In this document: positions 5,174 to 34,485 of the stretch, piece by piece
Numbering within the stretch: the stretch's first letter is position 1
How the letters are laid out: each line of letters begins with the position of its first letter
From: Streptococcus pseudoporcinus LQ 940-04
GTDB taxonomy: Bacteria; Bacillota; Bacilli; Lactobacillales; Streptococcaceae
Direction: 5' to 3'
Assembly (NCBI RefSeq): GCF_000188035.1
Contig: NZ_AEUY02000005.1
Coordinates: 1,612,001-1,676,000 of the forward strand
DNA: 64,000 nt
Made by a program: the position numbers and the translations under genes
Notes under the pieces: generated by a model
What the model was told of the DNA's origin: nothing
What the model saw: the letters and a program-made list of their open reading frames with translations, nothing else
Databases searched by the model: none

Positions 5174-5404
5174 TTAGTGATTCAAATTGTAGGTTTCAAT
5201 GATACTTTCAACCGCTTGTTCCAAGGTTTTAAAGAAACTTTCAGCACTGCCGTTATTAACAACCACAAACCTTTCGTCAAGCTCTGCAATTTCACCGACA
5301 AGACGTTTTCCATTTAGTAACTGATAACCATTCACTAGCGTATTTTCAAGTGAAACCTTATGATCAAGAATTTGAATTTCAATTTTTTTATCTTTTTTAC
5401 CCAT
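5174..5404 (-). CDS. Small protein, DUF2969-like
   Basis: A 76-residue soluble protein beginning MGKKDKKIEIQILDHKV and ending ESFFKTLEQAVESIIETYNLNH. The lysine-rich start, the central GKRLVGEIAELDERFVVV strand pair and the amphipathic C-terminal helix fit the DUF2969 family of Lactobacillales, as far as I can recall it. Its function is unknown. I chose ATG 5404 because GAGGTG lies 8 bases upstream; the frame is open further upstream, but that part is hydrophobic and lacks a ribosome site. It lies between ilvE and the tRNA pair on the same strand. Confidence 0.65.
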   Translation of the reverse strand: MGKKDKKIEIQILDHKVSLENTLVNGYQLLNGKRLVGEIAELDERFVVVNNGSAESFFKTLEQAVESIIETYNLNH

Positions 5405-5432
5405 TCTACACCTCGCTTTATCCATTTTACAC

Positions 5433-5464
5433 AAAAAGAAAAAAGCTTGCAAGAGCAAGCTTTG
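5433..5464 (-). terminator. ilvE terminator
   Basis: AAAGCTTGC / GCAAGCTTT stem with a 4-base loop. On the minus strand it is followed by TTTCTTTTTGT. It sits 3 bases after the ilvE stop and overlaps the region upstream of the DUF2969-like gene. Confidence 0.8.
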
Positions 5465-5467
5465 GAT

Positions 5468-6490
5468 TTAATCAACTTTTACAATCCAGCCTTCTGGGGC
5501 CTCAATATCACCAACTTGAATGCCTACCAATTCGTCATATAAGCGGCGAGTTACTGGTCCCACTTCTGTCTCACTGTAAAAAACATGTAAGTGATTGCGA
5601 TACTGAATACCACCAATTGGTGAGATTACAGCAGCTGTTCCACAGGCACCAGCTTCTACAAATTGCCCTAAATCGTTAATTGGAACGTCCCCTTCAATAA
5701 CAGTCATTCCTAGCCTCTTTTCAGCTAATTCGAGAAGAGAATATTTAGTAATGGATGGTAGAATTGATGGACTTAAAGGAGTGATAAACTCGTTATTAGC
5801 AGTAATACCGAAGAAATTCGCAGCACCTACTTCTTCAATTTTAGTATGAGTGGCTGGATCTAAATAAATCACATCAGAAAAACCACTTGCTTTTGCTGCT
5901 TTACCTGGTAACAGCGAGCCAGCGTAATTGCCTCCGACCTTTGCTGCACCTGTTCCAAATGGTGCAGCACGGTCATAATCTTCTGAAACAATAAAATTTG
6001 TTGGCATTAAGCCACCTTTAAAATAAGCACCTACTGGCATTGCAAAGATAGTAAAGATATACTCATCAGCTGGTCTGACACCAATAACATCCCCGATACC
6101 AATTAATAAGGGACGAAGATATAGACTCGCTCCTGTGCCATAAGGTGGCACATAATCTTGGTTTGCTTTGACCACTTGCTTAACCGCTTCAATAAATTGT
6201 TCTGTTGATATTTGTGGCATCAATAAACGGTCTGCCGTCGCCTGTAAACGAGCGGCATTACAATCAGGACGAAAGAGTTGAATAGACCCATCTTTTGTCC
6301 TATATGCCTTTAACCCCTCAAAAGCTTGTTGACCATAATGTAAGGCAGGGGCTGCTTCGGATAGATGTAATGTGGCATCTTCAGTAAGTTGTCCTTGATC
6401 CCATTTTCCATCTTTAAAATAAGAAATATAACGGTAAGGTAATTTATGGTATTCAAATCCGAGATTATCCCAATCTATATCAAGTGTCAT
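5468..6490 (-). CDS. ilvE: Branched-chain amino acid aminotransferase
   Basis: 340 residues, the full length of class IV BCATs of the Bacillus/Streptococcus type. PLP is bound by the lysine in GAAKVGGNYA (K184). The HYGQQAFEGLKAY segment near residue 51 and EVGAANFFGI further on are family signatures. It swaps amino groups between 2-oxoglutarate/glutamate and Leu, Ile or Val in the cytosol, serving both synthesis and breakdown. GAGG lies 8 bases before ATG. It lies downstream of parC on the same strand, with about 120 bases between. Confidence 0.93.
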   Translation of the reverse strand: MTLDIDWDNLGFEYHKLPYRYISYFKDGKWDQGQLTEDATLHLSEAAPALHYGQQAFEGLKAYRTKDGSIQLFRPDCNAARLQATADRLLMPQISTEQFIEAVKQVVKANQDYVPPYGTGASLYLRPLLIGIGDVIGVRPADEYIFTIFAMPVGAYFKGGLMPTNFIVSEDYDRAAPFGTGAAKVGGNYAGSLLPGKAAKASGFSDVIYLDPATHTKIEEVGAANFFGITANNEFITPLSPSILPSITKYSLLELAEKRLGMTVIEGDVPINDLGQFVEAGACGTAAVISPIGGIQYRNHLHVFYSETEVGPVTRRLYDELVGIQVGDIEAPEGWIVKVD

Positions 6491-6612: not shown

Positions 6613-9068
6613 TCAAATCTTGCTGACAATACCTCTTGATCTGAAATAGTATCTGAAATAAAAGTACCGTTACTTGTACGTTCAGACACAGAATAGCCGC
6701 CTAAATCCACTAGGTATTCTTGACCTGTTTTGCTGATAACTAGCAATCTTAAGCTAGCTTCACTATCCGTTTGTGGATCGCTAAATAAATCAATAGTCTT
6801 ATTCGAGGCTAGCCCCTTTACAGCACCAGCTAAGAAAACCCGATGAGGTTTATTTTTTAATTCTCTCAAAACCAATAGTCCCCTATTTGCTCGACTCGTT
6901 TGCGGGATATCCTCTGTTGCCACTCGCTTCAGACTGCCGCGTTGTGTCAGAACAAAGAAACTGTCGGTATATGCTAAGAAAGCGGAAGCAATGTAATCGT
7001 CTTTTTTAAGATTCATGGCTTTCACACCAGCTGTTTTTAAACCTTGAACGGGCACCTCTTCGTTAGAAAAACGAAGGGCATACCCTTGATGTGAAATCAG
7101 CATGATATCTTCAAAAAGGATAGGCTGGACAGCAATAATACGATCTTGCTCATTTTTGAGTTTAGCATACTTAAGCGATTTGGAGCGATAGGTACGCCAA
7201 GGCGCTAGCTCAGCTCTTTCAAAGCGCTTAATTTGACCTAGTTGTGTCACACTGTAGTAAGTGCCAGATTTAAAATCGTCCACAAGCTCGGCGTATAAGA
7301 CTTTTTCATCATTCCCATAGTTGGTAATGGTTTGAGACAAGTGCTCACCAATTTCCTTCCAACGAATATCTTGTAGTTCATGCACAGGACGATAAATGAC
7401 ATTTCCTAGATCCGTGAAAATAAGAAGATGCTGGGTTGTTTTAGCACTGGCTACAAAAATTAAGCTATCATCATCACGTTTACCAATCTCTTCAAGGGTT
7501 GAAGCGTTGAACGATCTAGGACTAGTTCGTTTAATATACCCACCTTGTGTAAGGCTGACAAAGGTCTCTTCTTCTACAATCAAACTAGCAGTATCAATTT
7601 CAATTGTCTCTGCCTCTTTTTGCAATTGTGAACGACGAGGGTTACCAAATTTCTTTTTAACCTCTCGTAACTCACGCTTCATAACATTGTACATGGTAGC
7701 TTCATCGGCGATAATAGCTCTCAAAGTGGTGATTAAGTTCCCAAGTTCTTCTTCTTCATTTTGCAAAGTGACAATATCGGTGTTGGTCAGACGATACAAT
7801 TGCAAAGTAACAATAGCTTCTGCTTGCTCTTCAGTAAAAGCATAGCTGATTTTCAAGTTTTCCTTGGCATCCGCTTTGTTTTCAGATGCACGAATCAGGG
7901 CAATCACTTCATCGAGGATAGAAATAACTCGGATCAGGCCCTCAACAATGTGAAGGCGTTTTTCAGCTTTAGCCATATCAAATTTGGAACGCTCAATAAT
8001 GATTGACTTGCGGTGCGCAATGTAGGAGCTGAGTATCTTTTGAATACCGACTTGATGGGGAGTGTAGTTGTCAATAGCTACCATATTGAAATTGTAATTG
8101 ACTTGTAAATCAGTATACTTCAATAAATAATTTAAAACTGTCTGTGTGTCAGCATCTTTTTTCAGCTCAATCGCAATCCGTAAACCAGATCTATCAGATT
8201 CATCACGAACTTCCACTATTCCAGGAACTTTGTTATTAACACGGACATCATCAATTTTCTTAACTAAAACAGACTTGTTAATCTCGTATGGAATTTCCGT
8301 AACGATAATCTGTTGTTTACCACCTTTTAGCTCTTCAATCTCTGTTTTAGAGCGAACAACTACTCGGCCTTTACCCGTTTCATAAGCCTTACGGATTTCA
8401 TCCTGACCTTGAATAATGCTTCCAGTTGGAAAATCCGGTCCAGGTAAAAATTCCATTAATTTGTCCAATTTAGCTTTAGGATGATCAATTAAATAAACCG
8501 TCGCATCAATCACCTCTGCTAAATTATGAGGCGGAATATCAGTAGCATAACCTGCAGAAATACCTGTAGCTCCATTCACTAAGAGATTTGGATAGGCCGC
8601 TGGTAGAACCGTAGGTTCTTTTTCTGTATCATCAAAGTTCCAAGCAAATGGGACTGTATTTTTCTCAATATCTTCTAACAGATAACCTGAAATTTCCGAT
8701 AAGCGAGCTTCCGTATAACGCATCGCGGCTGGGGGATCTCCATCCATTGAACCATTGTTGCCATGCATTTCAACCAGAATTTCTCGATTCTTCCAATCCT
8801 GACTCATCCTCACCATGGCATCATAAATAGAGGAGTCGCCATGAGGATGGAAATTCCCCATGATATTCCCTACAGATTTTGCAGATTTACGGAAACCTTT
8901 TTCAAAAGTATTTCCATCTTTATACATAGAATATAAAATTCGACGTTGAACAGGTTTTAGGCCATCTCTAATATCAGGTAAAGCCCGTTCCTGAATAATA
9001 TATTTGGAGTAACGCCCAAAGCGTTCTCCCATGATGTCCTCCAAGGACATATTTTGAATGTTACTCAT
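6609..9068 (-). CDS. parC: DNA topoisomerase IV subunit A
   Basis: 819 residues. The N-terminal breakage-reunion domain has its catalytic tyrosine at Y118 (AAMRYTEARLS). The C-terminal half forms the beta-pinwheel, with repeated units such as GGYIKRTSPRSF and RGSLKRVATED. Topoisomerase IV unlinks daughter chromosomes. The quinolone-determining region reads HPHGDSSIYDAM, with S79 and D83 in the susceptible state. The ribosome site (AGG) is weak. The partner parE lies upstream on the same strand, separated by a DUF1232 gene and about 390 bases of non-coding DNA. Confidence 0.96.
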   Translation of the reverse strand: MSNIQNMSLEDIMGERFGRYSKYIIQERALPDIRDGLKPVQRRILYSMYKDGNTFEKGFRKSAKSVGNIMGNFHPHGDSSIYDAMVRMSQDWKNREILVEMHGNNGSMDGDPPAAMRYTEARLSEISGYLLEDIEKNTVPFAWNFDDTEKEPTVLPAAYPNLLVNGATGISAGYATDIPPHNLAEVIDATVYLIDHPKAKLDKLMEFLPGPDFPTGSIIQGQDEIRKAYETGKGRVVVRSKTEIEELKGGKQQIIVTEIPYEINKSVLVKKIDDVRVNNKVPGIVEVRDESDRSGLRIAIELKKDADTQTVLNYLLKYTDLQVNYNFNMVAIDNYTPHQVGIQKILSSYIAHRKSIIIERSKFDMAKAEKRLHIVEGLIRVISILDEVIALIRASENKADAKENLKISYAFTEEQAEAIVTLQLYRLTNTDIVTLQNEEEELGNLITTLRAIIADEATMYNVMKRELREVKKKFGNPRRSQLQKEAETIEIDTASLIVEEETFVSLTQGGYIKRTSPRSFNASTLEEIGKRDDDSLIFVASAKTTQHLLIFTDLGNVIYRPVHELQDIRWKEIGEHLSQTITNYGNDEKVLYAELVDDFKSGTYYSVTQLGQIKRFERAELAPWRTYRSKSLKYAKLKNEQDRIIAVQPILFEDIMLISHQGYALRFSNEEVPVQGLKTAGVKAMNLKKDDYIASAFLAYTDSFFVLTQRGSLKRVATEDIPQTSRANRGLLVLRELKNKPHRVFLAGAVKGLASNKTIDLFSDPQTDSEASLRLLVISKTGQEYLVDLGGYSVSERTSNGTFISDTISDQEVLSARFD

Positions 9069-22693: not shown

Positions 22694-23914
22694 TTAATAG
22701 TAAACCCTTTTCTTTCTCACAACAAAATGTACTTTTTCAAAAATAAATTTTATAATTAAGTAAATAATCAAGGTTGCAATAATCGAATAAACTTTAGTTC
22801 TACCAATTGTAAACACACCTTGAAGTAACAACTTGTAATACCCTAATAAGATGAAACTATCACTAATGTGAAATTGTTTTTTATTAACTACAAGTGTAAA
22901 TAAAATACCACACATTATCCCGATAAGAATTGTTCCAACATAGCCCCAGTCAGCATAAAGCCAACCTAAAAAAGTATAAAATCCACGCACCCAAATTCCA
23001 AGTTGATCAGAAAATTTTACACCTCCTGATAGTACACCAAAAGCATACTCACCTAGCATTGGTTTACGAATCGTGTTTACTTCTAGACCAAACATGTAAG
23101 GAGTTTGACCAAAATAATAGATAAGTGAACTTACAGCTGATGAAGAGAATCTCGAAATCGTAACCGAAATTAAATAAGGAATACTAGTAACAATTGTCAA
23201 AAGAAAAATAAGATTAATATATTTTCTACTCTTTTTATTAATATCCTGGTAGAAAAAAACATATAAGGTACCAATGAACATAATAAAGATAGCCATCATA
23301 CCTCGAGAAGAAACATACATATCTATACAAAACTCAGTTAGTCCAACCATTATTAACAGTATTGAACCAAGCGTATACCTGTTGTTTGTTCTTAGTAAAT
23401 TAAATCCAACAATAATTGCTAATAATTGAGTGTAATTTGTAAAAAGTATGGAAAACTTTTCAAAAATATTATTATAAGGAATGACTGCTTGATCTGAATT
23501 CATGACCAAACGATTACTTGCCCATTGTCCAGACGTAATAAGTGGAATAATTTTTCCAAGATAAACAAATACTGTAACAACTGCAAAGAAAAGAAATATT
23601 TTTGCAAAAATAATATAGTTTTCATGCATTTCTTTATCAATTTTTGCAGCATTGAATGACTTACTTTTACTGATAAAAGGAAAGAAAAACAAAATGAAAG
23701 CAACCACCATAAAAGTTACAAGGTCATATGTAATATTGCTGGAATCAAGAACGTAACTGTACTTAAGATATCCTCTAGTTGGAACTAATAACGTTATCAA
23801 AGATATAGCAAAATAAATGAAAACTAAGGCCAAACCTAATAAATTCGTTCTATTTATTATACATCCTAATAATAAAGTCCCTAACATAATTGAATACAAA
23901 ATAATAGGTGTCAT
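22694..23914 (-). CDS. Wzy-type capsule polymerase
   Basis: 406 residues with about 10 to 11 membrane helices and a large external loop between residues 255 and 310 (including [18 protein letters not shown]). This is the pattern of O-antigen/capsule polymerases, which share little sequence. Its position beside the flippase supports the call. It would join repeat units on the outer face of the membrane. Its ATG overlaps the TGA of the acetyltransferase gene (ATGA). Confidence 0.8.
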
Positions 23915-24555
23915 TTCAACTCTTTCTCATCTATTTTATTAATCAGATTCTCTAATTTAGGTAAGTTTGGATTTTTATCTAAATCAGAATAAAATAATTC
24001 AATATTTTCTCTAACAGTATTTTCCGATAATTTAGAATAGTCAAGTTTCATTAATAAATGGGAAATTTTATCAGAAAACCGTTTTTTAATCAATTTAGCA
24101 GGCACTCCACCATAAATTGTATAAGGTGGAACATCTTTTGTAACAACTGATCCAGCAGCAATAACTGCCCCCTTTCCAATTGTGACACCAGATAAAATAA
24201 TGGCATTCGTTCCAATCCATACATCATCCTCAATTATTATGTCACCATTTGAAACTGCTTCATATTTTTCATTTAGAAATCTAACTCTAAATGGGTATGT
24301 CGAAATCTTATTCGTTAAATGCTCTCCGCATACAATAAATTGAACATTGGGTGCAATACTACAAAAGTGACCAATCTTTAACTTATAATTATCTGAATGA
24401 TTAATGATATTTAAAACCCCATATGTAAATTTTCCAACTGAAATTAAATGATAATTTGAAACAGAACCTAAAACTGTCTTATTATGACTATTAGCTTTAC
24501 GCCATTCCCTTTGGTTTTTAAATTTAGCATATCTACTTATAAAAAGATTAATCAT
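23911..24555 (-). CDS. Hexapeptide-repeat O-acetyltransferase (CatB/LbH type)
   Basis: 214 residues with left-handed beta-helix repeats ([36 protein letters not shown], about residues 108-143) and the C-terminal [13 protein letters not shown] typical of CatB-like xenobiotic or sugar acetyltransferases. It likely acetylates a capsule sugar. ATG 24555 has GAGGAAA 4 bases upstream and overlaps the preceding gene by 8 bases. A TTG four codons earlier lacks a spaced ribosome site. Confidence 0.85.
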
Positions 24556-25627
24556 AAATTTCCTCAATCGACTTTTTAACTGCTTCTAAGTAGCCAAGAC
24601 CATATTTTAAATCTGGCTCTAAATGGTTACCTTCCCCCCATTCATTCCAAGATTTAATTATAACTTGTTGCTTCGATCTTGGCTTTGATCTCACTGTTTT
24701 TACAGTCTCTTTTAAGAGGTCAGCAAAATATTTTGGTTTTGCATTATCTAAAATCATTGCATTATTTCCAGAACGTGGAGAATGATCCCAGTTTGGAGCA
24801 ACTACCGGAATGACATTTTCATCTTTTGCTGAATCATCAATCATATATTTAATTGCTTCTTTATATTTAAATACTGTCGGTCTTCTGAAAACTTTTCTTT
24901 TGATAAGTTGCAATACCTTAGAAATCGTTGTAAGCTCGTGATGAATATTTAAAGTGTTATCTTCGAAGACTGCATCAACTCCAATACTCATTATCTTGTC
25001 TTTATTAACTCCCGACATATCTTTACCGACAAAATAAAAGTCACTTAATCCTTCTTTTTTTGCAAGGTTACGCCAAGTATTAATAAAGCTAACAATTTCT
25101 TCATCCGCTAAAGGACTGTATATAATAAAGAATAATTTACCTTCAACTTTATAATATCGTTCATCTTTAAAGATATCTAAGTAAGTGTAAAAATATTTTT
25201 TATAGTCTTCGACTCCTAGATACTTTTGCTCAACTAAGAGCTCATTCGATCCTTTTTTATCCCATTGTTTCTTTTCCCAAGAGTGATTTGCCCAACCCAA
25301 GCAAAATGGAAAATTGATTTCTTTATCATTATAAACTTCTCTTATTGGATTTTGAAGTAGTTCTACTCCATCTCCAAACCAATAATTCCAATAACAAAAT
25401 GCAGTGAGTCCATAATCTTTCGCAAGTTTTGCTTGCTCTTGTCTTGTTTCTTTTACTCGTAAATCATAAAACCCTAAATCAGCTGGTACGTGCGGTTGAT
25501 AGTGATTTTGATATAAAGGTTTTGCTTTTGCAACATTGGTCCATTCAGTAAATCCTTTACCATACCACTTATCATTTTCTGGAACAGGATGGAATTGTGG
25601 TAAATAGAATGCAATATATTCTACCAT
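24548..25627 (-). CDS. WbsX-like (GH99-like domain) polysaccharide protein
   Basis: 359 residues. The N-terminus [24 protein letters not shown] and the later [25 protein letters not shown] and [14 protein letters not shown] segments are typical of the WbsX family found in O-antigen and capsule loci, sometimes fused to glycosyltransferases. The fold resembles GH99 hydrolases. Its role in assembly is not established, and it may act as a glycosyltransferase or modify chains. It has no signal peptide, so it works in the cytosol. GAGAGGAT precedes ATG. Confidence 0.8.
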
Positions 25628-25639
25628 ACTATCCTCTCA

Positions 25640-26566
25640 TTAATCTTTCTTTGAAATGAATGTTTTAAATTCATCATAATCTCTTATATAATCATTTTCA
25701 TCGTAATATTCTGATGCAGCAACACATAGGACAGAATCTTTTTCTAGCCAAAGCATTTCTCTCCAAACAGGTTTATTGATAATAATACCAATTGATGGAT
25801 CAGATAGTTCAATTTCTTCTCTACCATTTTCATCTTCTAGAATTAATTGAATTCTACCATAAGGACAAAACAGCATTTGCTCTAAATTTTTGTGAGCATG
25901 ATATCCTCTTCTAATCCCTTCAGGAACTTTTGAAATAAAATAAATTCTTTTCATATCAAATGGTAAATCGTTCTTTCCTTCAAAGAAAGATAATTCCCCC
26001 GCGCCTAAAGTAGAAATTGTCTTCAAATTAATAACAGGACACCCAGAGACAACTTCTCTTTTATCAATAATATCTCCTTTTAATACTGAAAACCAAACAA
26101 GGTCTTCAATAGTAGAGTATCTTTCTTTTAATTCAGTTGGTACATCTAATACTTCATGAAAATTATGTTTAGTGTAAAATCTTAAAGCTCTACTATTACT
26201 TCTTGAAACACACCAATACACACACTCCAAACCATATTTATCAAAAGCTTGGTTTAATATTTCTTTCATTCCATACCATGAATATCCATGACCCATAGCA
26301 GCTCTACGAACAGAGATTGCTAATTCTGCAGCCTTAACTTCTAAATTAACATGTTTTAAACTAACTGTACCCATGTACTCATCGGTATCATTTGAAATTG
26401 CTAAATGAATATTTTCTTTATCGCTAAAACTCTGTTCAATAAAGTCTTCAGCATCTTTTATAGTCTTATTTTTGAAATTAGAGAATAGATTTTGGGTAAC
26501 ATTCTCATCATGCATCCATTCCAACATATTAGAAGAATCTTCAATTTTCAATTTTCTAAGGTACAT
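25640..26566 (-). CDS. Fusion: GNAT acetyltransferase + sugar 3,4-ketoisomerase (FdtA/QdtA-type cupin)
   Basis: 308 residues in two domains. Residues 1 to about 150 form a GNAT fold (MYLRKLKIEDSSNMLEWM; ISVRRAAMGHGYSWYGMKEIL; ALRFYTKHNFHEV). Residues from about 170 to 308 form a WxcM/FdtA cupin (RIYFISKVPEGIRRGYHAHKNLEQML; PVWREMLWLEKDSVLCVAASEYYDENDYIRDYDEF). The cupin should convert dTDP-4-keto-6-deoxyglucose to its 3-keto isomer. The neighbouring aminotransferase then adds an amino group that the GNAT half could acetylate. The outcome would be dTDP-Fuc3NAc or Qui3NAc. dTDP-glucose and RmlB must come from elsewhere in the genome. Confidence 0.85.
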   Translation of the reverse strand: MYLRKLKIEDSSNMLEWMHDENVTQNLFSNFKNKTIKDAEDFIEQSFSDKENIHLAISNDTDEYMGTVSLKHVNLEVKAAELAISVRRAAMGHGYSWYGMKEILNQAFDKYGLECVYWCVSRSNSRALRFYTKHNFHEVLDVPTELKERYSTIEDLVWFSVLKGDIIDKREVVSGCPVINLKTISTLGAGELSFFEGKNDLPFDMKRIYFISKVPEGIRRGYHAHKNLEQMLFCPYGRIQLILEDENGREEIELSDPSIGIIINKPVWREMLWLEKDSVLCVAASEYYDENDYIRDYDEFKTFISKKD

Positions 26567-26577
26567 ATTAAATTCTC

Positions 26578-27675
26578 CTAATTAAAATTATTCAATGTAG
26601 TAATAACATAGCCAATTTCTTCATCAGTCATGCCATAATAAATTGGAATACTAATTTGAGTATCACTTATTAACTCAGCAACTGGAAAATCACCTTTTTT
26701 ATATCCTAAATCTGAATAACATTCTTGTAAATGCACAGGAATAGGATAATGTCTATTCGTTGAAATTCCATTTTCATTCAAGAAACTTTCAAGTTCCGTT
26801 CGACGCTCTGATCTTATCGAAAAAACATGCCAAACATGACCATGTTCCTCAGGAACAGAAGGTAATACAATATTTTCATTCGTAATTTCATTAAGATATC
26901 TCTGAGCAATAACGTTTCTATTTTGATTCATTTTATCAAGGATTTGCAATTTCGCCAATAAGAATGCAGCTTGTAATTCATCAAGGCGTGAATTATTCCC
27001 TTTATAAATATGATGATATTTATAAAGGGAACCATAGTTTGCATAAGTTCTAACTTTGTCAATTAATTCTTTAGTATTACCTACAACACCACCAGCATCA
27101 CCTAATGCACCCAAATTTTTCCCTGGATAAAAACTGAATCCTGATAAATCACCAAACGACCCTACTTTTTTACCTTTATAAGTTGCACCGTGCGCTTGAG
27201 CACAATCTTCGATAATATATAAATTATATTTATCGGCTAATTCCTTTATACCATCCATATCACATGGTAAACCATATAAATGGACTGGCATAATTGCCTT
27301 AGTATTTCCTGAAATCTGTGATTCAATTTTTGAAACATCAATATTAAATGTTTCTAGATCAGGATCAACTAAAACTGCTTTTGCACCTACATAAGAAACA
27401 GCTAAAGCCGAAGCAATATATGTATTGGCAGGAACAATAACCTCATCTCCTTCTCCTATCCCCAATGCTTTCAAAGCTAACATAAGAGCATCTAAACCAT
27501 TTCCAACTCCGACACAATAATCTGTATTACAATATTTAGCAAATGCTTCCTCAAAGCCCTTATCTTCTTGACCACTAATGTACCAACTACTTTTTAATAC
27601 TCTTTCAAAAGCATTATGTAATTCATCATTAAGTTCAGTTTCCATTGGTAAAAAGCTAACAAATGGTATTTTCAT
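26578..27675 (-). CDS. dTDP-3-keto-6-deoxyhexose aminotransferase (FdtB/QdtB-type, DegT family)
   Basis: 365 residues, full length. PLP motifs include [37 protein letters not shown], and the lysine in [17 protein letters not shown] (about residue 187). The [14 protein letters not shown] wording is that of FdtB/QdtB enzymes, which aminate C3 of a dTDP-3-keto-6-deoxyhexose. It lies directly before the GNAT-ketoisomerase fusion, with 11 bases between, so the three activities are encoded together. It overlaps the preceding glycosyltransferase by 20 bases. Confidence 0.85.
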
Positions 27676-30141: not shown

Positions 30142-30762
30142 TTAGTTCCTCTCAATTGTGTATCTGTATTCATTCATTTTTCTACCTTCAGGTGTTTCAA
30201 ATGTTCTATACAAAACAAAACCATTTTTTTGGTAAAAATAATTTGCCTTTTCATTATTAATTGCATCAGTCGTTAACTCAATATATGTATATCCTGTAAG
30301 ATCAACAATATTTGGAATACTTTTAATAAGTTGTGAACCAATGCCTGTGTTCGAAGTATTGGTTGTAACACCGATTGATGAAATTTCAATATATTTTTCT
30401 ATTTTACTAGCTTGGCTTGGATATAAGAAAGCCCTTATTAATCTAATAATTCCTTTAGGACTCTTAACACAAGCTTTTAAACCATAATATCCAAAATATA
30501 TCACTTTATATTTTATTAACCATTTATAAAAGCCACTCAAATCTTTAGAATAAGCTAGAAACCCAAGAACTTTTTCGTCTTCTCTAGCAATAATAATTCC
30601 AGATTGATCATGTTCTAAAAAACCTAAATATAAAGTATTTAGGAATCTTTTTCCTAAAAAGGTCAAAAAGAAATTTGGAAAAACATTTAAATGTATCTCA
30701 ACTATTTGCTTAATTAATTCTTTTTCCTTCAACTCTTCAAAAACAATATTTTTATTTTGCAT
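30142..30762 (-). CDS. GNAT acetyltransferase, probably for a 4-amino-4,6-dideoxy sugar
   Basis: 206 residues. The acetyl-CoA site is ISSIGVTTNTSNTGIGSQLIKSI (about residues 127-149), and the fold closes with NEKANYFYQKNGFVLYRTFETPEGRKMNEYRY. It sits one base from the aminotransferase gene (30764), which in turn precedes the initiating transferase. That position suits acetylation of the new amino group, a step usually done by a PglD-type hexapeptide enzyme. Function is inferred from position only. Confidence 0.75.
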   Translation of the reverse strand: MQNKNIVFEELKEKELIKQIVEIHLNVFPNFFLTFLGKRFLNTLYLGFLEHDQSGIIIAREDEKVLGFLAYSKDLSGFYKWLIKYKVIYFGYYGLKACVKSPKGIIRLIRAFLYPSQASKIEKYIEISSIGVTTNTSNTGIGSQLIKSIPNIVDLTGYTYIELTTDAINNEKANYFYQKNGFVLYRTFETPEGRKMNEYRYTIERN

Positions 30763-30763
30763 C

Positions 30764-31978
30764 TTAAATACTTTCTAAAATCGTTTTTAAATTATTAATG
30801 ATATAATCAACTTCTTCATTGGTTAATTTAGTATGTAAAGGTAAAGTCATAGTATTATCGAAATATGTTAAGGCATTTGGAAAATCCTTAATATCAAACC
30901 CCATATTCCTATAGGCTGTTAACATTGGTAATGGTTTATAATGAACATTACAAGCAATACCTACTTCAGCCATTTTTTGAATAACTATATCACACTGTCC
31001 TCTTGATAAGCCATCTAAATGGACAATATAAAGATGCATTGATGATTTATATGAGTTATCTGTTGGTACGTGGACAAGTGGTTTAACAATTGTTCCATTA
31101 AATCCACTATTATATTTTTCAACGATTTCATTTCTTCTATTTAGTAAATCATTGTATCTTTCTAATTGTACTAATCCAATTGAAGCCATAATATCCGTCA
31201 TATTGCATTTATATCCCGGAATTAAAATATCATATTCCCAAGAGCCTATTTTTGTTTTTTCAAGAGCATCTTTAGTTTGTCCATGCAATGAATAAATTTG
31301 AAATTGTTTATATAAATCATCGCTGTCAATTGGAAGGTTTGTATTCCAAGTCACGGCACCACCTTCAGCAGTAGTGAAATTTTTTACAGCATGAAAAGAA
31401 AAAACTGAGAAATCTGCAACTTGACCTATCATTAAGTTATTATATTTTGCACCAAATGCATGAGCACTATCAGATAAGATTGTAATGCGTCCTAATAATT
31501 CTTGAATTGTTGAATTTGGAACAAATTTTTCCTTTTCACTCTCAACAATATCAAACAATTTATCATAATCACATGGAATACCAGCTAAATCAACAGGTAT
31601 TATAACTTTTGTATTATTAGTAATTGATTTTCTCAACTTATCATAATCAAATTGGAAAGAATTTTCTTGAATATCAATAATGACAGGTGTCGCACCAACG
31701 TGTTCAATAACACTACATGATGCCGTATATGTCATTGCTGGTACAATAACTTCATCACCTTTTCCTACTTCAAGAATTCGCAAAACTAATTCCAAACCTG
31801 CAGTAGCTGAATTTAAACATACAACTTTAGTTGTACCAAGATACTTAGCGATTCTTTTTTCTAGTAATTTAGTTTTAGGCCCTGTTGTAATCCACCCTGA
31901 ACGTAATACTTCAGTCACCGCAGAAATCTCAGTTTCAGTAATATCTGGTGGTGAAAAAGGTATATTCATAGTTTTCAT
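30764..31978 (-). CDS. UDP-4-keto-6-deoxyhexose aminotransferase (PglE-like, DegT family)
   Basis: 404 residues. PLP motifs are [40 protein letters not shown], and the lysine in FSFHAVKNFTTAEGGA (about residue 207). FHAVKNFTTAEGGA and SPPDITETEI mark the group that aminates C4 of UDP-4-keto-6-deoxy-GlcNAc (PglE, PseC and relatives). An insertion of about 20 residues near 150-175 (EKEKFVPNSTIQELLG) is present. It lies between the 4,6-dehydratase/initiating transferase pair and the GNAT gene. Confidence 0.85.
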   Translation of the reverse strand: MKTMNIPFSPPDITETEISAVTEVLRSGWITTGPKTKLLEKRIAKYLGTTKVVCLNSATAGLELVLRILEVGKGDEVIVPAMTYTASCSVIEHVGATPVIIDIQENSFQFDYDKLRKSITNNTKVIIPVDLAGIPCDYDKLFDIVESEKEKFVPNSTIQELLGRITILSDSAHAFGAKYNNLMIGQVADFSVFSFHAVKNFTTAEGGAVTWNTNLPIDSDDLYKQFQIYSLHGQTKDALEKTKIGSWEYDILIPGYKCNMTDIMASIGLVQLERYNDLLNRRNEIVEKYNSGFNGTIVKPLVHVPTDNSYKSSMHLYIVHLDGLSRGQCDIVIQKMAEVGIACNVHYKPLPMLTAYRNMGFDIKDFPNALTYFDNTMTLPLHTKLTNEEVDYIINNLKTILESI

Positions 31979-31995
31979 AATAAACTTCTTTCTAT

Positions 31996-32673
31996 TTATT
32001 TAATTACACTAATAACCGTTGAAGCCATAATTTTTAAATCATCAAAAAAATTAAAGTTATAAACATATTCAATATTTCGTTGCATTTTTATGGGTAAAAT
32101 TTTTTCAATATAGGCTTGATCTACGGACAATCCATTTTCTGAATATTTTTTAATGAGGATTTCCTCATCCTTAAATTCTATACTTGAACGAGAAGTAACT
32201 CCTGCAGGCAATAATAACGAAACTTTCATTTCATCTGTATAGTTAAGAACATATTTCAAAACTTCAGGTCTTGCTCCAACAAAACTCATATCACCTTCAA
32301 TAATATTTAATAATTGGGGAATTTCATCTAATCTATATTTTCTGATTATGGATCCAACTTTTGTTATTCTAGAATCATTCTTTGTTGTAACGAGTGAGCC
32401 AATTTTATCAGCATTTGCAACCATGGTTCTAAATTTGTAAATTTTAAAGATTTTTCCATTTTTTGTAATTCGGTCTTGACGGTAAAAAATTGGTCCCTTA
32501 TCTTCAAGCTTGATTAATACACCTAATATTAAAAATATAGGACTAAGTAAAATAACCATAAAACACGCTACAAATTTATCAAAAACTAATTTCAATATTA
32601 AGTCATTTTTTCTTTTTTTTAAGTATAATTCTGCTTTTTGTACTTCTTGGCAATTGAAATAGTCACTGTTCAT
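31996..32673 (-). CDS. Initiating phosphoglycosyl transferase (PglC/WcaJ catalytic-domain type)
   Basis: 225 residues, one membrane-inserted helix (about residues 28-50), then the full small-PGT core: GPIFYRQDRITKNGKIFKIYKFRTM, SRITKVGSIIRKYRLDEIPQL with the DE pair, and GDMSFVGARPE. It moves a sugar phosphate from UDP-sugar to undecaprenyl phosphate, the first step of the repeat unit. It is the compact type, lacking the four-helix N-terminal domain of the usual streptococcal CpsE/WchA, which fits an unusual UDP-diamino sugar rather than glucose. Confidence 0.9.
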   Translation of the reverse strand: MNSDYFNCQEVQKAELYLKKRKNDLILKLVFDKFVACFMVILLSPIFLILGVLIKLEDKGPIFYRQDRITKNGKIFKIYKFRTMVANADKIGSLVTTKNDSRITKVGSIIRKYRLDEIPQLLNIIEGDMSFVGARPEVLKYVLNYTDEMKVSLLLPAGVTSRSSIEFKDEEILIKKYSENGLSVDQAYIEKILPIKMQRNIEYVYNFNFFDDLKIMASTVISVIK

Positions 32674-32682
32674 TGATGAAAT

Positions 32683-34485
32683 TTACTCCTGTTTAGCATT
32701 TTTAATTAAGGTTTCTTTGAGGCCTTTTTCAGATAATTGGCCTAAGCCATTGATAACCATTTCTACTTCTGCCAATGGTTTTGAGGTAACTTTACCAACA
32801 AAGATTTTATCATGAATTTGTTGGCTGACCCGTTCGTCGCTAGAAAGTAATTCTTCGTACAGTTTTTCACCAGGGCGAATACCTGATTCAACGATTTTGA
32901 TATCATCTTCGGTGTGGCCACTCAATTTGATGACCTTTCGGGCCAAATCGACTATTTTAACGGGTTCTCCCATGTCAAGGACAAAGACTTCACCACCTTT
33001 TGCTAAGTAGCTGGCTTGAATAACCAAACGACTTGCTTCGGGAATGGTCATAAAATACCGTGTCATTCGGAAGTCCGTCACGGTTAGTGGACCACCTTTT
33101 TTGATCTGTTCTTTAAATAATGGGACAACACTTCCACGACTGCCTAGAACGTTTCCAAAACGGACAGCGGCAAATTGTGTTTTTCCTGGTTCATTTAAAC
33201 CCGTAACAATCATTTCAGCAAAGCGTTTGGTGGCTCCCATAACATTAGGTGGGTTAACAGCCTTGTCTGTTGAGACCATAATAAAACTAGCTACGCCAGC
33301 TGCTTTAGTCGCTTCAGCAACATTTTTTGTGCCAAAGATATTGTTTTTCACAGCTTCTCTAGGATTAGATTCCATTAGAGGCACATGTTTATGAGCAGCG
33401 GCATGGTAAACCATATCAGGCTTATAAGTCGCCATAAGCTTAAAAATCAAGTCCCGATCTTGAATATCAGCAATGATTGGAACAATTTCGATAGCGTCCT
33501 GATAAGTGTCTTTCAGCTCACGATTAATCAGATAAATAGAATTTTCACCATGCCCCAGTAAGAGCAGCCGTCTTGGCTTAAATTTTGAAACCTGACGGCA
33601 GATTTCAGAACCAATAGAACCACCTGCACCAGTTACTAGAACGGTTTTACCATTGAAAAAATCGGACAATGATGATTGGTCTAAAAGAACTTCTTTTCGA
33701 CCTAGTAAATCTGCAATATCAATCTCTTCAAATTTATTTAGGGAAACCTTACCCATCACAATATTTTCAATACTTGGCATATTGTTTACGGGCACATTTG
33801 CCGTACGACAAATATCTAAGATACTCTCACGCTCTTCCCCCGTTAAACTCGGGATAGCAATGGTTACTTGATTGACTTCGTAGTCAGCCACGATTCTAGG
33901 AATGGCTTGTTTATTCCCAAGAACTTTAATGCCATGCAAGTAGGTTCCGTGCTTGTTGATGTCAGCATCGACAATTCCGACAATTTCAAAATCTTTGCTC
34001 TTATTTAAGACTGTTTGGATGAAGACGCTACCACCTTCACCCGCTCCTACCACTAGAAGACGTCTTTTCTGGTCATTTTTCTTTTTTCGCATCTTAGGAT
34101 TAAAATCGTGATACATGCGCCAAGTCATTCTTGGGATAATCACTAAAAAGGTGCTGAAAAGGTATCCCAGAAAGATAAAACGTCTACTAAAACTATCAAA
34201 ATAGAACAAATCCAGTAAATAAGCCATCAGAGAGGCAACAAATAAGTTGACAATGATTTTAAAGATTATTTTGTAGTCTGTGAAGCGGTTGATGATTGAA
34301 AAGATTCGAAAGTGAATACCAAGAATGGTATAGACAAAAAGAGTCATCAAAAGAGTTATTATCACTTCGCTATTTGTCAAATCTTGACTATAAGCTAATA
34401 GAAAATGATAGGCTGAAATATGAGATATAGTAATCATCAGCACATCTAAAAAATACAAAATCACTCTTTTTTGACTTCTCTTCAT
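32683..34485 (-). CDS. Membrane-bound UDP-GlcNAc 4,6-dehydratase (PglF/CapD/WbpM type)
   Basis: 600 residues: four membrane helices (about 10-125), a CoA-binding-like Rossmann domain (about 145-235), then an extended SDR domain from KTVLVTGAGGSIGSEI. The catalytic motif reads STDKAVNPPNVMGATKR, with Met in place of the usual Tyr. This SMK arrangement is the known mark of PglF/FlaA1-type dehydratases. The product is UDP-4-keto-6-deoxy-GlcNAc for the downstream aminotransferase. It is less AT-rich than the genes after it and marks the 5' edge of the variable cassette. Confidence 0.9.
   Translation of the reverse strand: MKRSQKRVILYFLDVLMITISHISAYHFLLAYSQDLTNSEVIITLLMTLFVYTILGIHFRIFSIINRFTDYKIIFKIIVNLFVASLMAYLLDLFYFDSFSRRFIFLGYLFSTFLVIIPRMTWRMYHDFNPKMRKKKNDQKRRLLVVGAGEGGSVFIQTVLNKSKDFEIVGIVDADINKHGTYLHGIKVLGNKQAIPRIVADYEVNQVTIAIPSLTGEERESILDICRTANVPVNNMPSIENIVMGKVSLNKFEEIDIADLLGRKEVLLDQSSLSDFFNGKTVLVTGAGGSIGSEICRQVSKFKPRRLLLLGHGENSIYLINRELKDTYQDAIEIVPIIADIQDRDLIFKLMATYKPDMVYHAAAHKHVPLMESNPREAVKNNIFGTKNVAEATKAAGVASFIMVSTDKAVNPPNVMGATKRFAEMIVTGLNEPGKTQFAAVRFGNVLGSRGSVVPLFKEQIKKGGPLTVTDFRMTRYFMTIPEASRLVIQASYLAKGGEVFVLDMGEPVKIVDLARKVIKLSGHTEDDIKIVESGIRPGEKLYEELLSSDERVSQQIHDKIFVGKVTSKPLAEVEMVINGLGQLSEKGLKETLIKNAKQE

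Follow-up and report, generated by a model that had tools for sequence, protein, structure and literature searches.

Among the enzymes of dTDP-linked 3-amino sugar synthesis, FdtC is a hexapeptide-type enzyme. QdtC, from the QdtA/QdtB/QdtC pathway of Thermoanaerobacterium thermosaccharolyticum, is described as a left-handed beta-helix (hexapeptide) trimer (PMC2943079). The same source reports that QdtB aminates the galacto isomer as well, and it gives a rule for the isomerases by which retaining enzymes carry Arg and inverting enzymes carry His at the stereo-determining position. Structure titles identify 4zu7 as a QdtA double mutant (Y17R/R97H) and FdtD of Shewanella denitrificans as a solved bifunctional ketoisomerase/N-acetyltransferase (4mzu). 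FdhC is a GNAT protein that acylates Fuc3N with a 3-hydroxybutanoyl group, according to the 5ktc title, to statements in PMC4869667 and to a title cited in PMC12273574. In PseH, another GNAT enzyme, Tyr138 is described as the putative general acid, while acetyl-CoA is reportedly contacted by Asn131 and Ala134 along its beta-alanine/mercaptoethylamine part (PMC4363471). No fusion of a GNAT domain to a ketoisomerase was found in the literature among the matches listed.

We describe such a fusion in a window of 64,000 nucleotides from Streptococcus pseudoporcinus LQ 940-04, the whole stretch of DNA that was analysed. The tmRNA tag of the genome, AKNTNSYALAA, likewise points to Streptococcus. The original prediction, made from the sequence alone, had read the gene as a GNAT acetyltransferase fused to a sugar 3,4-ketoisomerase with an FdtA/QdtA-like cupin half, and had noted that the N-acetyltransferases of this pathway are mostly hexapeptide enzymes, as the fold given for QdtC (PMC2943079) bears out.

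A GNAT domain and a predicted ketoisomerase in one reading frame

The fusion is a single ATG-started open reading frame of 308 amino acids, and both Pfam domains score over their cut-offs, in agreement with the predicted domain pair. Acetyltransf_3 covers residues 2-136 (E 2.1e-15; 58.1 bits against a cut-off of 25.4) and FdtA (PF05523) covers residues 176-303 (E 6.3e-40; 136.4 bits against a cut-off of 23).

25640..26566, minus strand: GNAT-QdtA/FdtA fusion ORF, 308 aa (ORF and Pfam; structure model)
26072..26566, minus strand: GNAT half, residues 1-165, predicted acyl-CoA-dependent N-acyltransferase domain (Pfam, 8-member alignment A1, fold match)
25643..26041, minus strand: cupin half, residues 176-308, predicted sugar 3,4-ketoisomerase (PF05523, QdtA 4o9e as best match, residue table)

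Both folds are visible in an AlphaFold model of the fusion (mean pLDDT 94.2), whose pTM of 0.70 makes the relative placement of the two halves unreliable. The alignment behind this model contained many single GNAT rows with their last 30-40 residues set against the cupin half.

A frameshift or an assembly join as the source of the fusion was rejected on the basis of a full-length relative in a second genome and of the identities at the three codon positions. This relative, whose presence makes an assembly artefact unlikely, is found in the metagenome-assembled genome of the uncultured Clostridiales isolate RUG222 (locus L002), which we take from the isolate name to be of rumen origin. The best segment is 67% identical, and amino-acid identity is 65% in the GNAT half, 56% in the junction and 74% in the cupin half. 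Identities at codon positions 1, 2 and 3 are 0.70, 0.81 and 0.44 in the GNAT part, 0.64, 0.64 and 0.31 in the junction (residues 140-178) and 0.77, 0.93 and 0.43 in the isomerase part. The dS between the two genes is beyond estimation, which we take as saturation. In L002, the fusion is followed, with two genes between, by an FdtB homologue that is 67% identical to that of the window.

The trees of the two halves disagree. The GNAT half falls near L004 and L122 (clade support 0.95; inner L004-L122 node 0.00), and the cupin half lies beside L003 (support 0.99). This suggests, but does not prove, that the two halves came from different clusters.

Distribution of the fusion

The original prediction proposed a survey of the domain pair in public genomes, and the full-length fusion does recur: it was found in two genomes in all, that of the window and L002. 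This count is a lower bound because the scan of genome contigs recovers only relatives that keep one of six short peptides; it yielded 12 loci, one of them with the fusion. The window's own genome was the only one with the fusion among 395 genomes of its order and among 197 genomes of its genus (own included in both). None of the 31 plasmid records and five phage records that matched covered 80% of the query in one place, and no match was found in viral contigs. Likewise, no GNAT match lay in an open frame of more than 260 residues among the matches listed from a profile search of 380 genomes.

Isomerase half and likely product

As predicted, the cupin half is FdtA/QdtA-like, and its closest solved relatives are QdtA 4o9e (E 1.1e-33) and FdtA 2pa7 (E 5.8e-31). 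In fold comparisons, residues 170-308 of the model match QdtA with Z 21.4-21.5 and FdtD with Z 20.4. The catalytic histidine pair is kept in the motif RGYHAHK (H223/H225, corresponding to His49/His51 of FdtA). At the position of FdtA His95, the fusion has R269 (VWREM in the window), that is Arg and not His. At the position of QdtA Tyr17, the window, L002 and L003 all have Ala rather than Tyr, and FdtA 2pa7 has Arg. The QdtA Y17R/R97H double mutant reportedly switches product, so that position 17 would matter. Ala at this position, which departs from both QdtA (Tyr) and FdtA (Arg), counts against a firm assignment of product stereochemistry.

The Arg typical of C4-retaining isomerases, together with an adjacent aminotransferase closest to QdtB, makes dTDP-Qui3NAc the more likely product than dTDP-Fuc3NAc. 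Since QdtB also aminates the galacto isomer, the match to QdtB supports Qui3N and does not prove it. The original prediction had left the product as Fuc3NAc or Qui3NAc; the pathway is supported, and the two sugars are no longer equally likely.

GNAT half

Five residues of the GNAT half, namely G92 and G94 of the GxG loop (AMGHG), N124, A127 and Y131, are invariant in 8/8 relatives (alignment A1). The residue before the GxG loop is Ala in the fusion, where we take Gln or Arg to be usual in GNAT proteins. The spacing of N124, A127 and Y131 (3 and 4) is the same as that of Asn131, Ala134 and Tyr138 in PseH, a match by spacing. A correspondence of W17/M18 with Trp38/Met39 of PseH was dropped because alignment offsets do not support it. 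The original prediction would have been contradicted by a GNAT half lacking acetyl-CoA binding; at the sequence level the five residues are kept, and the CoA site looks intact.

Sequence matches of this half to solved proteins are weak, the best being SpeG (E 4.6e-5). FdhC was absent among the 28 solved sequences matched by the half itself at E<=10. The GNAT profile matched 40 distinct solved sequences (E<=1e-5), and FdhC was not one of them either, whereas the acetyl enzymes SpeG and PseH are matched. The best NCBIfam match is PseH, below its cut-off (39.4 of 93.1 bits). In fold comparisons, SpeG gives the best match (Z 19.7; its structure 6vfn has Z 19.1 with residues 1-169), and PseH 4ri1 (Z 18.0; residues 1-171) and FdhC 5ktc (Z 17.6; 168 residues) are also matched. 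Acetyltransferases for polyamines, peptides and sugars all fall within Z 16-20, so that the GNAT fold alone does not give the acceptor.

Gene neighbourhood and substrate supply

The genes around the fusion are likewise on the minus strand and include the following:

23911..24567, minus strand: hexapeptide acetyltransferase of the Vat/CatB kind, second gene downstream (Pfam; solved-structure matches)
24548..25627, minus strand: WbsX-type glycosyltransferase, next gene downstream in transcription (PF14307)
26578..27675, minus strand: QdtB/FdtB-like PLP aminotransferase, 365 aa (DegT family in Pfam; QdtB as best solved match)
30142-30762, minus strand: separate GNAT directly beside the second aminotransferase (Pfam)
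30764-31978, minus strand: second aminotransferase, PglE/PseC-like (Pfam)
31996-32673, minus strand: bacterial sugar transferase (Pfam)
32683-34485, minus strand: nucleotide-sugar 4,6-dehydratase type, PglF-like (Pfam)

Further minus-strand genes of the cluster are presumably glycosyltransferases and Wzx/Wzy-like membrane proteins. The neighbour that had been called FdtB/QdtB-like is so indeed: its best solved relative is QdtB 3frk (E 2.2e-146, 490.7 bits), followed by 7n63 (395.2 bits). This "next gene" is upstream in transcription, on the same strand, and 11 bases separate its stop from the start of the fusion.

The hexapeptide protein at 23911-24567 was considered as a QdtC and rejected, as it is closer to Vat/CatB (Vat, E 5.6e-27; QdtC only E 1.9e-7 over 52 residues). 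A full-length QdtC-like protein was not found in the genome, where four partial matches were detected (best E 4.1e-12). Genes for RmlA (508 bits) and RmlB (448 bits) are present in the same genome, about 110 kb from the cluster, and we read the ORF between them (L077, 8123-8719) as RmlC. The GNAT at 30142-30762 may be a C4-amine acetyltransferase replacing a hexapeptide PglD.

The GNAT clade is associated with FdtA and FdtB

Separate genes for GNAT, FdtA and FdtB occur together at L003, L004, L008 and L012, and also in G045 and G274, two genomes from the order to which the window belongs. In G045 (L076), the GNAT (7167-7667) and FdtA (7657-8064) frames, with bounds as cut by the script, are arranged as in the fusion and overlap by 11 bases. 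A Tritonibacter mobilis plasmid is annotated with a GNAT, an FdtA and an aminotransferase gene in this order, the GNAT and FdtA genes being six bases apart.

The association was evaluated with the A1 GNAT profile, which was built partly from loci that entered through FdtA, in 380 genomes from a different class of the phylum, that of G423. Flanks were examined for the 22 listed hits above 110 bits and for 18 of the lower hits (72-105 bits), the latter chosen down the ranking with several skipped (e.g., second pieces and a nearly identical copy from a sister genome). FdtA (and FdtB) was found in the flank of 16/22 high scorers and FdtA in that of 0/18 lower hits (Fisher p 1.2e-6), the 16 positives not being independent, since they represent 14 genomes, with five genera (g391, g402, g398, g117 and g348) in two families. 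Some of the positive loci have an interrupted GNAT reading frame (stops or split frames). FdtA was not found at six of the high scorers, L110, L112, L119, L121, L127 and L129, of which the last four lie close to where a contig ends; at L119, FdtB alone was found. Weaker matches to a DegT aminotransferase (36-292 bits) were present near 9/18 controls, which indicates that a nearby sugar aminotransferase is not special by itself and that FdtA is. The GNAT clade is associated with FdtA/FdtB.

GNAT and hexapeptide proteins at FdtA loci

In the phylum sample, 44/398 genomes have some FdtA match (E<=0.001), and matches with E<1e-30 occur at 15 places in 13 genomes, own included. At the 14 other FdtA loci, a hexapeptide protein was found in 10/14 (local profile, E<=1e-4) and a member of the GNAT clade above 100 bits in 0/14. 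The hexapeptide profile was built from L006, L007, L061, L063, L065 and L069, the last four of which are also counted among the ten, and the ten further include L067 and L070, whose proteins reach only 48-50 bits and are encoded 1.6 and 5.3 kb away from FdtA. The best solved relative of the L061 protein is QdtC. The two kinds of protein appear as if they fill one slot, and the GNAT solution is rarer than the hexapeptide one in the phylum sample. One exception to this pattern is L008, which has both a GNAT clade member and, farther off, a hexapeptide protein; the FdtA loci of L005, L009, L011, L064, L066 and L072 have neither kind or only a distant one.

More distant GNAT proteins, not counted in the GNAT clade, stand beside FdtA/FdtB at L068 (5721-6314, minus strand), L010 (8401-9000, plus strand) and L067 (6763-7362, minus strand). 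The sole solved match of the L068 protein at E<=0.001 is FdhC (E 1.5e-4). The window's clade does not match FdhC, so that the two GNAT clades look separate.

Other arrangements of FdtA were also observed. L063 encodes a protein of 387 aa (5317-6480, minus strand) in which an N-terminal FdtA is joined to a C-terminal hexapeptide domain, the reverse of the FdtD order; we read its hexapeptide half as NeuD/PglD-like. Clusters with two FdtA genes are found at L008 (2300-2710, 5335-5751), L115 (337-891, 888-1310) and L113 (4260-4694, 4691-4954); the pairs of L115 and L113 are in tandem, and the second gene of L113 runs off the contig. Campylobacter, too, has a pair of known ketoisomerases, WlaRA and WlaRB, according to structure titles. 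FdtA relatives at L012, L070, L071, L072, L076 and L116 have HAN in place of HAH and Lys at the stereo-determining position, which perhaps points to another product or mechanism. In those of L073 and L074, the catalytic His-pair pattern was not found and Val occupies the stereo position.

Proposed function and alternatives

We consider it probable that the fusion is bifunctional and catalyses two steps in the synthesis of a dTDP-3-acetamido-3,6-dideoxyhexose, in all likelihood dTDP-D-Qui3NAc, for the surface polysaccharide of the cluster. RmlA and RmlB, encoded elsewhere in the chromosome, would supply dTDP-4-keto-6-deoxyglucose. The C-terminal cupin domain would turn this 4-keto sugar into its 3-keto isomer while retaining the configuration at C4, and the separate QdtB-like enzyme would aminate C3. 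The N-terminal GNAT domain would then acylate the C3 amine, most likely with acetyl, in a direct transfer from CoA in which Tyr131 serves as general acid, and the resulting dTDP-D-Qui3NAc would enter the surface polysaccharide made by the surrounding cluster. One polypeptide would carry out steps one and three, as originally proposed, a reading supported by the domains, the kept residues, the neighbours and the model. We infer both catalytic activities, the acetyl donor, the Qui3N acceptor, the polysaccharide destination and any benefit of the fusion.

It is unlikely that pathway and acceptor are the same and that another acyl group, such as 3-hydroxybutanoyl, is transferred, as by FdhC/QdhC. 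FdhC is a GNAT protein with this kind of acceptor (5ktc title), and its fold match over 168 residues is tied with that of PseH (Z 17.6 and 18.0). However, the GNAT sequence matches the acetyl enzymes SpeG and PseH and not FdhC, either with the profile or with the half alone, whereas FdhC is matched by the GNAT that adjoins FdtA/FdtB at L068 and belongs to a different lineage.

The GNAT half could also act on an unrelated acceptor, for instance the C4 amine of a second amino sugar made by the PglF/PglE-like proteins (30764-34485), with the isomerase merely carried along. The cluster does encode a 4,6-dehydratase-type protein and a second aminotransferase, and PseH, the best NCBIfam match even if below cut-off, is a C4-amine GNAT. 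This reading is nevertheless improbable: a separate GNAT directly adjoins the second aminotransferase, the GNAT clade tracks FdtA/FdtB in other genomes, and the GNAT is fused to the isomerase in a fusion that recurs. More improbable still is a non-catalytic or regulatory GNAT half with the hexapeptide protein at 23911-24567 as the real N-acetyltransferase. That protein is encoded two genes downstream and QdtC is of the same fold (PMC2943079), but its Vat/CatB affinity and the retention of the GNAT residues argue against it.

Beyond this locus, we lean towards the view that the unnamed GNAT clade is a dTDP-Qui3N/Fuc3N N-acetyltransferase across several Firmicutes genera, and perhaps also in Alphaproteobacteria, that replaces QdtC/FdtC without shared ancestry. 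Its fusion to the isomerase would be an event separate from those behind the hexapeptide fusions (FdtD and the reverse-order L063), and would suggest that there is an advantage in coupling the first step to the last. The clade constitutes a target for naming GNAT genes of polysaccharide clusters as 3-amino-sugar N-acetyltransferases, which would improve the prediction of Qui3NAc/Fuc3NAc in capsules. With two unrelated folds fused to the same isomerase, intermediate channelling by step-skipping fusions becomes testable against FdtD.

Comparison with known systems

FdtD resembles the fusion in having an acetyltransferase at the N end, a cupin 3,4-ketoisomerase at the C end and the same two steps, and the cupin halves are 35% identical in the fold comparison (Z 20.4). 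It differs in its acetyltransferase half, which matches a hexapeptide enzyme (at 4mzu residues 65-146), whereas that of the fusion has the GNAT fold. The QdtA/QdtB/QdtC pathway shares the closest isomerase and aminotransferase as well as the Arg at the retaining position; in contrast, QdtC is a left-handed beta-helix of which no full-length relative was found in the genome of the window. FdhC of Acinetobacter nosocomialis (5kta/5ktc) is alike in its GNAT fold, and its product is 3-(3-hydroxybutanoylamino)-3,6-dideoxygalactose; it differs in its 3-hydroxybutanoyl donor, in an identity of 14% in the fold alignment, in being unmatched by the GNAT sequence profile and in having been solved as a 188-residue chain without an isomerase half. 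PseH shares the fold, the general-acid Tyr and the CoA contacts. PseH and WecD, both GNAT nucleotide-sugar N-acetyltransferases, differ in acetylating a C4 amine and in having no fused isomerase, as far as described in PMC4363471.

The original prediction therefore needs correction as to novelty: the union of the two steps in one chain is already known from FdtD (4mzu), and a GNAT acting on such an amino sugar, Fuc3N, is known from FdhC. The fusion combines what these two enzymes show separately. What is new, as far as searched, is the pairing of a GNAT domain with the cupin isomerase, along with the apparent replacement of QdtC by a clade of GNAT proteins.
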